From the NCBI GenBank assembly GCA_025451115.1, contig JANWKZ010000090.1, positions 1 to 43,732 of the forward strand: a DNA stretch of 43,732 nucleotides. The letters are read 5' to 3'. This stretch comes from Bacteroidia bacterium (GTDB taxonomy: Bacteria > Bacteroidota > Bacteroidia > B-17B0 > Aurantibacillaceae). A model generated the notes under the pieces. It made no database searches and was not told where the DNA came from. It saw nothing but the letters and a program-made list of their open reading frames with translations. Shown piece after piece: positions 26,424-30,937 of the stretch (its first letter is position 1; every line of letters begins with the position of its first letter). A program made the position numbers and the translations under genes.

Positions 26424-27410
26424 TTATTTAACAATTACTTTCCTTACTTCCGATTGTTTTCCCTGCGTTAAGTGCACAAAATACACGCCCTGACCAAGGC
26501 TTTTCAGCGAAAGGGTCTTATTTACCTGGTCATTTACATTATTCTCGGTCTCCGTTAGCACCGTCTTGCCTTCGGCATTATAAACCTTGATCTGTAAGGG
26601 TTCTTTGCTTACCGACTTATAAGTAATAGTGCACGCATCTTCGGTTGGGTTTGGGGCCATATTCAGGCTCTCGAAAGTTTTACCGTTGGCGATGGCCTTA
26701 GAAGCATCGGCAGGCAATTGCTTTTTCTCTGCCTCAGAAAGTTTTTTTACTTCCATCTTGCTAAACACATACACCTTTACTTCTTTGCTTTCCTTGCCAT
26801 TCTTGCTTTCGTGATTTTTAATGATCACTTGCCTTGCTTCTCCTTTTCCACCTTCAACACCGTGTTCTTTCAGGATCTTTTCCAGTTCTTCATCCATTTT
26901 CTCTCCGGGCTTCAGGTGTTTTACAACCACCTGCGCATCGCCTTCTTTTCCCTGGCTGTCGGTGGTAATTACATTTCCTTCTCCGTCCATCACAATAACA
27001 TGCGCATCGCCATTCTTGCCGCTTTTTGAAACGACCTTCATTTTTTTCTTTTCCCCGCTTTTTTTACCGTTGCTGCCGTTCTCATCGTCAATGGCAATTA
27101 CTTTGGTATAAGAATACTCATACCCTTCGCCAGGCATAGAGTCTATCTCAATAACGATAGAGGCTGCTCCGGGAGGTACAGGAGGAACAGGAGGCACGGG
27201 GGGAACCGGAAGCAATTCCTCTCCAAATCCTAAAGCATTAATTTTCTCCTGCAATTCGGCGTCGGTCGCGGCAGTAACACAAGTATCTATCTTGGTTACT
27301 TTGCCATTTTCCTCTTTTTCCATCTTGATGCAGGCTTTTTTCATTTTAGTTGTTTGCGCTCCAAGAGCTATGGTAGCTATGATGAAGGCGCCTGTGAGTA
27401 TGTTTTTCAT
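26424..27410 (-). CDS. Secreted protein with T9SS type A sorting domain and Pro-Pro-Val repeat
   Basis: This 328-residue exported protein has a signal peptide (MKNILTGAFIIATIALGAQ). A repeat PVPPVPPVPPVPP lies at about 68-80. A Gly/Lys/Glu-rich, charged, low-complexity middle region (about 85-240) follows, with beta-like stretches such as DAHVIVMDGEGNVITT and EARQVIIKN. The last 75 residues are a T9SS type A sorting domain (MAPNPTEDACTITYKS through QGVYFVHLTQGKQSEVRKVIVK). It is therefore probably exported across the outer membrane and attached to the surface. Its promoter carries four GTTAAA-type half-sites upstream, matching the site upstream of the neighbouring kinase gene. It has its own terminator. 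Confidence 0.9.
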   Translation of the reverse strand: MKNILTGAFIIATIALGAQTTKMKKACIKMEKEENGKVTKIDTCVTAATDAELQEKINALGFGEELLPVPPVPPVPPVPPGAASIVIEIDSMPGEGYEYSYTKVIAIDDENGSNGKKSGEKKKMKVVSKSGKNGDAHVIVMDGEGNVITTDSQGKEGDAQVVVKHLKPGEKMDEELEKILKEHGVEGGKGEARQVIIKNHESKNGKESKEVKVYVFSKMEVKKLSEAEKKQLPADASKAIANGKTFESLNMAPNPTEDACTITYKSVSKEPLQIKVYNAEGKTVLTETENNVNDQVNKTLSLKSLGQGVYFVHLTQGKQSEVRKVIVK

Positions 27411-27433: not shown

Positions 27434-27441
27434 CAAAAGTA
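27434..27441 (-). promoter_or_regulatory. TAnnTTTG promoter element of the T9SS gene
   Basis: On the reverse strand this reads TACTTTTG, an exact consensus match, 23 bases before the ATG. The first GTTAAA half-site lies 22 bases upstream of it, where an activator would sit. Confidence 0.6.
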
Positions 27442-27463: not shown

Positions 27464-27501
27464 GTTAAAGGGCGGTTAAAACGTGTTAATGAAAAGTTAA
27501 A
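27464..27501. promoter_or_regulatory. Four GTTAAA/GTTAAT direct half-sites, candidate OmpR-type RR box
   Basis: GTTAAA at 27464 and 27475, GTTAAT at 27485 and GTTAAA at 27496 give steps of 11, 10 and 11 bases, about one helical turn each. Tandem half-sites with this period are typical of OmpR/PhoB-family regulators. The last two half-sites belong to a 22-nt sequence repeated exactly at 28601-28622. Confidence 0.65.
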
Positions 27502-27502
27502 G
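27481..27502 (+). repeat. Exact 22-nt direct repeat, left copy
   Basis: This 22-nt stretch, beginning ACGTGTTAATG and ending AAGTTAAAG, is identical to 28601-28622. The copies are 1,120 bases apart and flank the C5-epimerase gene. It contains two of the candidate RR half-sites. Confidence 0.95.
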
Positions 27503-27515
27503 TCAGGATGGGCGT

Positions 27516-28538
27516 CTATTTCCGCATAATATCCTCACGGAATTTACGCGACATGTGCTCAAAAAGCGTGTCGCCCGTAATTAATGCAAGCGTGTGCAAT
27601 TGTTTTACGTGAATTGTATGATAGATGGTATCAAAATTGGCAACGTGCTTCAGGCAATATTTACTAATAGTACCTTCCATACGGTACCGTCCAATGTTCT
27701 TTTTGATAGTTGTGAGTCCGCCCAAAACCAGTTTTTTTATTTCCGGGTTGCTACTTACAAGGTAATACTCGTATAATCCCAAAATAGCAAAAACCTTTCC
27801 GTTTAGGGTATAGCCGGGATACTCCTGCGGGTACTCCTCAAACCAGATGTTTTGGGTAGAATCTATACAGCTTATCCACACATTCTTATGATCGCTTGAC
27901 GCGGGCTTTAAAAAATAGAATGAGTTTGCTATACGGCGCATATCATCCAGGTATTTTTTGTCTTTGGTGATCTTATAAAGCCGGGTGGCCGCCGATAAAG
28001 CAACTCCCTGGGTGAACCCGGAGAACCAGGGCGGAACCATCTGTTGATTTTTATAGCCGTGCAGTTTGAATGAATAATTATTCGGAAAAAGAAGTGCCGA
28101 GTCGATCTGTACACCATTCTTGATCAGAACATCATAATATTTAAGAACCCGTTTTAAATATAGCTCATTCCCTGTGGTTTTGTAATCGTAAATATTAGAT
28201 AAAACTCGCTCCGTATAAACCCCGGGATGAAAGTCGTAAGACTTTCCTTCGTAATTAAAAATCGGAAATGAGTCTTTTGAAAAATGCAGATTGGGGGTTA
28301 ACTCCAGGTGTTGATTAAGCATGAGGCTTGAATCCGGTATGGAATTGAGAGTAAATTCGTCGTAAACAAACTTCTCTCCCATGCATTTATCCGCTTTTGT
28401 AGAATCAAATTTAAAAATGAAAGGATCAGCTACTTCCTTTTTGGCAGGGATGATCTTTGGAGCTTTTTGTTTAAATATTAAAAATACAAGCGCAAGGCTT
28501 ATGAGTGGGATAATGATATAAAGACCTTTTCTGTCCAT
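27516..28538 (-). CDS. D-glucuronyl C5-epimerase-like protein, membrane anchored
   Basis: This 340-residue protein has one N-terminal transmembrane helix (YIIIPLISLALVFLIF, about 7-22) and a periplasmic alpha/alpha-toroid domain. It has the C5-epimerase C-terminal pattern: FHPGVYTERVLSNIYDY near 103, VPPWFSGFTQGVALSAATRLYKIT near 168-191, WFEEYPQEYPGYTLNGKVFAILGLYEYY near 232, and a late tyrosine/histidine motif IYHTIHVKQLHTLA. In the family these residues act on uronic acids in heparan-type or bacterial glycans. No glycan cluster surrounds it. It lies between exact 22-nt repeats and between genes of the neighbouring two-component circuit. Confidence 0.85.
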   Translation of the reverse strand: MDRKGLYIIIPLISLALVFLIFKQKAPKIIPAKKEVADPFIFKFDSTKADKCMGEKFVYDEFTLNSIPDSSLMLNQHLELTPNLHFSKDSFPIFNYEGKSYDFHPGVYTERVLSNIYDYKTTGNELYLKRVLKYYDVLIKNGVQIDSALLFPNNYSFKLHGYKNQQMVPPWFSGFTQGVALSAATRLYKITKDKKYLDDMRRIANSFYFLKPASSDHKNVWISCIDSTQNIWFEEYPQEYPGYTLNGKVFAILGLYEYYLVSSNPEIKKLVLGGLTTIKKNIGRYRMEGTISKYCLKHVANFDTIYHTIHVKQLHTLALITGDTLFEHMSRKFREDIMRK

Positions 28539-28600
28539 GGCTAATAAACCCTAAATTTACCTGATTTTAGAGAAAAAGCAAGCGGGAAGCAACAAGGAGC

Positions 28601-28622
28601 ACGTGTTAATGAAAAGTTAAAG
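28601..28622 (+). repeat. Exact 22-nt direct repeat, right copy
   Basis: Identical to 27481-27502. It lies in the 121-base divergent gap between the epimerase gene and the kinase gene. Confidence 0.95.
28605..28621. promoter_or_regulatory. Two GTTAAT/GTTAAA half-sites upstream of the kinase promoter
   Basis: GTTAAT at 28605 and GTTAAA at 28616 are 11 bases apart. They end 26 bases before the TAACTTTG element of the kinase operon, a class II-like activator position. This suggests that the RR encoded at 30242-30937 regulates its own operon. Confidence 0.6.
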
Positions 28623-28647
28623 CCATTTTTTTAAAAGAGTTATGCCT

Positions 28648-28655
28648 TAACTTTG
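28648..28655 (+). promoter_or_regulatory. TAnnTTTG promoter element of the kinase-RR operon
   Basis: TAACTTTG matches the consensus exactly and ends 4 bases before the GTG start at 28660, so the message would be leaderless or nearly so. Confidence 0.6.
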
Positions 28656-28659
28656 CCCT

Positions 28660-30255
28660 GTGAAGAATCGCACCCTTATACTCATTACCGTCCTTTTCGG
28701 GCTTCTGCTTATAGGCATTATCGTGATCCAGCTTGGCTGGGCCGCCCGCATCGCCGAGCTTAACAGAAAGGCTTTCGAAGACGCAGTTTATAAGTCGCTG
28801 GCGGCTGTGGTGAAACAAGTAGAAGAAAAAGAAAATTTCGTTTTTATTAAAAGGCAGGTTGAAACGGATACGCTTCTAAAAAAGACCAAAAAATTACTTA
28901 AACAAAATCACTCCTCCCCCAAAAAACTGCGCACACAGGTTTCTAATCTTCCCGGTCATGTACAGATCATGGTAAATTCGGATAATGGCAAGGAAACCAA
29001 GACGGTGATCAAGATCGAGAAGAATGGGAAAGGCGAAAAATACGTTTAAAACAGTGTATATGTAGGCGCCGCTTCGATCGACTCTCTAGGAACTCCTGCA
29101 GTTATAGTTACACCTCCTGTTCCACCGGTTCCACCCATGATCGAAACGATCGAGGCACTCGACGACAAAAAGGAGAGCGTGGAGATCATCATGGAAAAGA
29201 TGTTGAGCCTGCGCGACCCCGACTCAGTTTCCATAGATCCAAAGGAGATCGAGAAAATGATCGAGACACAACTTAAACAAAATGATCTGCCACAAAAATT
29301 CTCGTTCGCTCTTTTAGCAAAAGATCCGAAAAAATCTTACGTACATCCCGCAGAAGAGGGCCTTACTTATAACTTCTACAGGATCAATCTTTATCCCAAC
29401 GATATCTTTGGTCGGGAAGTTACATTGGCTCTTATGTTACCTATACAGGATAATAGAACGATTGTCGATGATCTCTGGGGTCCCATGGGACTATCCCTGG
29501 TATTTACATTGGCTATTTTAGTTCTTTTCATTTACAGTTTACGTATGCTGGTACGTCACCGCAAAATGCTGGCTATGAAAAATGACTTTATCAACCACAT
29601 GTCGCACGAGTTCAAAACGCCTCTTGCAGGAATTTCCTTAGGAGCAGATATTTTAATGAGTAAGGGTGGACAAGTAGATCCGGACCAGGTAATGAAGGTG
29701 GCCGGTACGATCAAAAAACAAAGTTTGCGCTTAAGCAAAGAGGTTAACGAGGTATTGCAGAACGCGCTGATGGAGGAAAATATCAGTAAACCACATTCGC
29801 TGTTCAATATTGTGGATACTATAAAAGGGCAACTGGAACTCTTGCAACCGCACATCGAAAGCGCTAAGGCCAACATACATGCAAATTTCTCTTCCGACAA
29901 GATATTGGTTAACGGAGACGAATCGCAGTGGCAGAAGGTATTCTCGAACCTGGTTGATAACGCGCTCAAATTCGCCAAGGAACAGCCCGAAATAACGGTT
30001 TCTGCAAAAAGCGTCGGTAACAAAGTAATACTGAGTGTAACCGACAATGGTGTAGGAATCGCTTCGAAAGACCTGCCTCATGTCTTTGATAAATTCTTTC
30101 GCTCAGATTACTATAAACAATCTAATATTAAAGGCTTCGGGCTTGGATTGAGTTTTGTGAAGAGTGTTGTGGAGGCACATAAAGGAATTATAAAAGCAGA
30201 ATCAGAATTAAACGCCGGAACTAAGATCACGATAGAAATCAATGCCGAAAGCTGA
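28660..30255 (+). pseudogene. Sensor histidine kinase interrupted by an in-frame TAA
   Basis: One reading frame of 532 codons encodes a complete HisKA-type kinase except for a TAA at 29047-29049. The part before the stop (129 residues) has a transmembrane helix (TLILITVLFGLLLIGIIVIQLGW) and the start of the periplasmic sensor. After the stop the frame stays open for 29 codons, including TPPVPPVPP, up to an ATG at 29137. From there 372 residues hold the rest of the sensor, transmembrane helix 2 (about 117-136 of the fragment), the H-box SHEFKTPL (H157 of the fragment), the N-box NLVDNALKFA and G-boxes DNGVGIA and GFGLGLSFV. It could be a recent nonsense mutation, a sequencing error, or two products with restart at 29137. 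The RR gene overlaps its end by 14 bases. Confidence 0.85.
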
Positions 30256-30937
30256 AAGAAAAATATTGTTGGCCGAAGACGACCTCAGCCTGGGCGAGCT
30301 GCTGAAGAATTATTTAGAGATGAATGATCTTGAGGTTGACTGGTACAAGAACGGCATTGAGGCTTTCAAGGGATTTTCAAAGAACAAATATGATCTGTGT
30401 CTCCTGGATGTAATGATGCCGGAGATGAACGGTTTTGAGCTAGCAAATGAAATAAAACAGATAAACGACAATGTTCCTTTTCTGTTCCTTACAGCAAAAT
30501 CACTCCGGGAAGACATTTTAACCGGCTACAAATGTGGGGCTGATGATTATATTCTGAAACCTTTTGATTCTGAATTATTGATCTTCAAAATAAATGCTAT
30601 TCTTAAACGGGCTTCCAATGCACCTCAACCGCCTTTAAGTGAAGAGTTCAAAATTGGTAAATACACCTTGCTTGCTAATTTGCGACTGCTGAAAGGTCCA
30701 AGGGGCGAGCAAAAGCTATCGCCTAAAGAAACGGATCTTTTAGGTTTACTGTGTCAGTATAAAAACAATGTGTTGCCCCGTGATCTGGCGCTGAAAAATA
30801 TCTGGGGCAATGACGATTATTTTAATGGCCGAAGTATGGACGTTTACATTACTAAGATCCGAAAATACCTAAAGGAGGACCCCTCCATCGAGATCATTAA
30901 CCTGCACGGAAAAGGATATCGTTTTAACGTGTCCTGA
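30242..30937 (+). CDS. OmpR-family response regulator
   Basis: This 231-residue regulator has receiver residues D13-D14, phospho-acceptor D56 (LLDVMMPEMNGF) and K106 (YILKPFDS). The C-terminal winged helix (about 135-231) has LSPKETDLLGLLCQYKNNVLPRD and the recognition region GRSMDVYITKIRKYLKEDPSIEIINLHGKGYRF. It is the cognate partner of the kinase that overlaps it by 14 bases. OmpR-family dimers bind head-to-tail half-sites about 11 bases apart; such sites lie upstream of the kinase and the T9SS gene, making those the likely targets. It ends at a strong terminator. Confidence 0.96.
   Translation: MPKAERKILLAEDDLSLGELLKNYLEMNDLEVDWYKNGIEAFKGFSKNKYDLCLLDVMMPEMNGFELANEIKQINDNVPFLFLTAKSLREDILTGYKCGADDYILKPFDSELLIFKINAILKRASNAPQPPLSEEFKIGKYTLLANLRLLKGPRGEQKLSPKETDLLGLLCQYKNNVLPRDLALKNIWGNDDYFNGRSMDVYITKIRKYLKEDPSIEIINLHGKGYRFNVS

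Follow-up and report, generated by a model that had tools for sequence, protein, structure and literature searches.

In a 43,732-nucleotide contig of a Bacteroidia bacterium (the window; contig 90 of a 2.75 Mb assembly, 73.6% complete), GTTAA half-sites lie upstream of both an exported-protein gene and a sensor kinase-response regulator operon. This raises the question of whether one regulator serves the two, and through what kind of operator. Our analysis indicates that the half-sites belong to a conserved four-box array which is probably the bidirectional operator of the adjacent RprY-like response regulator (RR), controlling both the kinase-RR operon and, in the other direction, the gene for the exported partner.

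The window locus and its half-sites

The region carries, from left to right, genes for a T9SS-sorted exported protein (- strand), a C5-epimerase-domain protein (-), a sensor histidine kinase (+) and an RR (+). The 328-residue exported protein (26424-27410), whose gene the initial annotation had already assigned to the T9SS, carries the N-terminal motif IKMEKEENGKVTKIDT and the C-terminal sorting domain of T9SS type A cargo (profile searches, Por_Secre_tail 8e-16; TIGR04183 55 bits against a cut-off of 23). In a structure prediction this C-terminal domain is modelled at a pLDDT of about 90, the whole-protein mean being 58, and orthologues of the gene occupy the same position in the loci of relatives. 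The kinase (28660-30255) has HisKA and HATPase_c domains and an in-frame TAA at 29047-29049, codon 130, within the periplasmic linker. The parts on either side remain in frame and the matching region of the sister gene (L047) is read through, so that the stop reflects a recent loss or else an error of assembly. The RR (30242-30937) is of the OmpR/PhoB family, as had been proposed, with Response_reg (PF00072, 4e-27, 95 bits) and Trans_reg_C (PF00486, 2e-16, 61 bits) both above cut-off. The operon consists of kinase and RR only, with the partner gene divergent.

The complete array, GTTAA-N6-GTTAA-N5-GTTAA-N6-GTTAA (27464-27500, +), has boxes at 27464, 27475, 27485 and 27496, i.e. in steps of 11, 10 and 11, and a second set has two boxes (28605-28609 and 28616-28620, step 11), both just as originally reported upstream of the T9SS and kinase promoters. 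These are not chance frequencies: the window has three copies of GTTAA-N6-GTTAA, where dinucleotide shuffles predict 0.15 and none of 100 yielded as many, and across the 2.75 Mb genome the four-box array matches exactly at one place, the runner-up sites carrying three mismatches. Each promoter has an exact TAnnTTTG -7 element, TACTTTTG for the T9SS-protein gene (27434-27441, -), 22 nt from box 1, and TAACTTTG for the kinase (28648-28655, +), 27 nt past the last box. The spacing first given as 22-26 bases is therefore right at its lower figure and short by one at its upper. The kinase GTG start lies 4 nt beyond TAACTTTG.

Between the two sets lies the epimerase-type gene (27516-28538, -), encoding 340 residues with an N-terminal hydrophobic segment and a C5-epim_C domain (PF06662, 9e-33). 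It sits in the middle of the operator region, flanked by a 25-nt direct repeat that contains boxes 3-4 (27481-27505 and 28601-28625, both +, 24/25 identical). A search of the six other genus genomes, three of them incomplete assemblies, gave no homologue, and the gene is absent from the corresponding region of the sister genome L047, the closest relative (RR 72% identical), which has an uninterrupted operator, GTTAAGGTGTGGTTAAAACACGTTAATGAAAAGTTAA, and no intervening gene. The simplest history suggested by these sequences is insertion of the gene into the operator with duplication of about 25 nt. A search for a phage origin of the insert gave no match. Judged from this anatomy, the two box sets make up a single divergent operator that the inserted gene has split, with half of it duplicated. 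The initial annotation was right that both genes share the boxes and described two separate sets because of this split. The whole array remains beside the T9SS promoter, at 22 nt, and boxes 3-4 stand beside the kinase promoter, at 27 nt. Since boxes 3-4 were apparently duplicated along with the insertion, each promoter retained a box at its normal distance, and as both distances are canonical both promoters may still respond.

Conservation of the array in the family and the phylum

All 61 family genomes searched contain RR relatives, and of the 20 neighbourhoods taken 12 have a T9SS-type gene directly divergent from kinase and RR. All 12 carry the exact, uninterrupted 11/10/11 array in a single intergenic region. 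The opposite orientation of the two promoters, initially seen as a complication, is thus the normal geometry, as one array always serves two divergent promoters. The array is absent from the eight remaining neighbourhoods, which are RprXY-type loci, most having GTTAA boxes close upstream of the kinase, usually as a step-10 pair. Scanning the 61 genomes with up to one mismatch gave 23 array matches and none for the reversed pattern, mostly at the T9SS-gene/kinase-RR type of locus; the loci are phylogenetically related and these counts are consequently not independent.

The conservation upstream of orthologues seen in the family extends to array-linked kinases well beyond it. Scanning GTDB contigs blindly, with nothing but the array's 20 fixed bases as query, we found at least 118 places, and most of the 80 GTDB records listed are Bacteroidota. 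Among the matches listed, a kinase-like ORF starts just downstream in the same orientation at 73 of the 118 places, in most cases with an RR behind it where the contig extends far enough, and usually with an exported-protein gene diverging, which makes such a gene the recurrent partner across the phylum. The surface protein, initially inferred to be the main output of the circuit, may have that role. The promoter elements are similarly fixed: of 83 unique kinase loci, 63 have TAnnTTTG on the kinase side at 26-28 nt past the array and 74 have it on the divergent side at 21-23 nt ahead of the array, when shuffling gives a chance of about 4% per locus of meeting the element anywhere up to 70 nt away on the kinase side. 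Exact arrays occur in only 6 of 395 sampled phylum genomes; widespread as it is, the array is therefore not general. Within the terms used, we found no description of it in Bacteroidota in the open-access literature.

Two classes can be told apart among the divergent ORFs, 48 encoding larger proteins and 21 small ones. An IKxxxxNGKxxxxDT-type motif, its pattern drawn up after inspection of the sequences, is present near the N terminus of 38 of the larger partners (1.7% in shuffled sequences), and 23 have a T9SS-like C-terminal signature. The small partners are Cys/Lys-rich in 20 of 21 cases and accompany shorter kinases (about 425 residues) and a separate RR clade. This second system type, with the same array and a divergent exported Cys/Lys-rich protein of 75-116 residues, is seen at L093, L107, L140, L166 and L201, among others. 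In the RR tree array-linked type I, array-linked type II and array-free RprY-type regulators form separate clades. In 24 type I loci, about half, a gap of 4 nt separates the kinase start from the -7 element; this is the commonest gap and that of the window, and a leaderless kinase mRNA is therefore predicted. A homology between partner and kinase sensor was also considered but not adopted, the faint likeness of IKIEKNGKGEKYV to IKMEKEENGKVTK being one by eye only.

Arrays are also found in other settings. Among the matches listed, 17 other places are upstream of an apparent Do-family (DegP/HtrA-type) protease gene, most of them between it and dapF (L102, L110, L111, L131, L160, L173 and others, in Polaribacter, Tenacibaculum and similar records). 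The Do-family identity was confirmed for two examples, and at the three such loci checked for promoter elements (L216-L218) TAnnTTTG lies 27-28 nt after the array. In one genus (L240, L242, L243) a second four-box array, conserved in three genomes and without the canonical -7 spacing, is upstream of a short ORF for an exported product of about 105 residues. Two genomes (G335, G343) of a single genus that is not of the window's class contain four further arrays (L219-L222), three of them with TAnnTTTG at 22 nt on the divergent side; by eye, no kinase gene was recognised alongside.

Proposed control and competing explanations

In the control we propose, RR dimers would bind box pairs 1-2 and 3-4, on one helix face, between the divergent promoters. 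The most likely outcome is activation, because the boxes stand close to the -33 regions, with the -7 elements downstream of them. RR control of both promoters would entail autoregulation and co-expression of the exported product with its sensor. The stop at codon 130 of the kinase frame in this assembly speaks against the proposal. The recognition helix, RSMDVYITKLRKY, is strongly conserved across 68 array-linked RRs.

An identical helix is present in the paralogous RprY-type system of the window genome, so that cross-binding is possible, and this gives rise to the main rival explanation, that the paralogous RprY is what chiefly occupies the array, or that both RRs do, the array then being a node common to a wider GTTAA regulon and not a private operator. 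The identity of the helices in array-linked RRs and RprY-type paralogues speaks for this, as do the GTTAA boxes of the paralogous RprXY-type operons, mostly a step-10 pair at about -59/-49 of the kinase, and the degP genes. In array-bearing genomes degP has a conserved step-10 pair (8/8), with TAnnTTTG 28 nt away in seven; but the pair is also present in 11 of 13 genomes without a four-box match, and cannot be credited to the array-linked RR, whose target we had considered degP to be. Kept with or without the four-box system, the degP pair fits an RprY-type regulon. Nevertheless the 11/10/11 layout marks the array-linked kinase operons and none of the eight paralogous ones, and the separation of the RR clades likewise argues against this rival; we therefore regard predominant or shared use by RprY as rather unlikely. 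Pairs upstream of degP (L245-L252, L298-L308) have the form GTTAA-N5-GTTAA, often GTTAAGTATTGTTAA, in many cases with TAnnTTTG about 28 nt on; the Do-protease match of the window's own genome is at a contig edge, its upstream region beyond the contig. OmpH/Skp was rejected as a target: its own-genome step-10 pair has TAnnTTTG about 41 nt on, not 28, and the OmpH genes of relatives have no box pair upstream.

The sign and the target of control could also differ from our proposal. Were the RR to repress both divergent genes until a signal relieved it, a shared divergent operator would be equally apt, being a common repressor layout too, and P. gingivalis RprY is placed in a repressor-acting group in PMC6032018. 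We judge this improbable: the boxes are clear of both the -7 elements and the start sites, the closest of them standing 22 and 27 nt upstream of the -7s, beside the -33 region, and PMC5083920 describes SaeR boxes at saeP1 that mediate activation. It is just as improbable that the right-hand set (28605-28620) today serves mostly to drive the epimerase-type gene of the insert (-), which would have been recruited into the regulon. Although this set is 67 nt upstream of that gene's start, much like the usual divergent partner, TAnnTTTG is missing at 21-23 nt on this side, where the only candidate, TAAATTTA at 28552-28559, is 45 nt off and was rejected for its non-canonical distance, while the kinase -7 at 27 nt has canonical kinase geometry. 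That the boxes are merely chance AT-rich repeats with no regulatory role has a vanishingly small probability. The simple two-box pattern does occur near the rate of its reversed control in genus genomes, and we abandoned a genome-wide two-box regulon, own-genome matches being few and mixed and those in relatives near control. The significance is carried by the four-box layout and its conservation; the uniqueness of the array, its conservation and the fixed promoter-element spacing (63/83 and 74/83 loci) contradict an origin by chance.

Relation to known systems

The predicted arrangement is that of an autoregulated two-component system sharing its operator with a divergent exported-protein gene. 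In E. coli the divergent exported-protein gene cpxP and the autoregulated cpxRA share one control region, a layout that the window recalls. The CpxR box is GTAAA-N5-GTAAA, whereas the half-sites here are GTTAA throughout, and no CpxP/Spy-type Pfam domain matched the window's divergent protein or 10 relatives. The closest named RR family by profile is that of RprXY from Bacteroides and Porphyromonas, yet the window RR scores below the cut-off of the RprY equivalog (NF051850, 283.8 against 370 bits), and the paralogous RprXY-type operons of the genus, though they have GTTAA boxes too, mostly have two at step 10 and no four-box array. A keyword search of RprY papers found no binding consensus.

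The binding-site likeness is instead to Sae of S. aureus. The OmpR/PhoB-type SaeR, of the same structural RR family, binds GTTAAN6GTTAA, and these direct repeats are doubled at saeP1 and coa (PMC5083920). The array has the half-site and the 11-nt step of the SaeR box, to which pairs 1-2 and 3-4 conform without mismatch, and window boxes 3-4 are identical to the fnbA site given there for S. aureus, GTTAATGAAAAGTTAA (PMC5083920). The autoinduced promoter of saePQRS is further described as yielding a lipoprotein and a membrane accessory protein along with the two-component system (PMC5083920). Sae differs in belonging to Firmicutes, in lacking a conserved four-box array and in having its accessory genes within the operon, in contrast to the divergent partner here; no SaeP/SaeQ-like gene is part of the window operon. 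SaeR was not among the 60 PDB matches listed.

Taken more widely, the loci could represent a family of two-component systems, spread across the Bacteroidota, that sense the envelope or the cell surface. In it a SaeR-like four-box operator would co-express the sensor and a divergent exported partner, T9SS-anchored or a Cys-rich peptide depending on the lineage, and this partner would feed back on the periplasmic domain of the kinase. We offer this tentatively, as a possibility that we hold somewhat less probable than its contrary. We know of few regulator binding sites in Bacteroidota. The 20-base signature finds kinase, regulator and exported partner phylum-wide, giving a handle on what the sensors control and a way of transferring binding-site knowledge between genomes. 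The window itself, with an operator split by an inserted gene and a box kept at working distance from both promoters, presents a clear case of regulatory rewiring by insertion.
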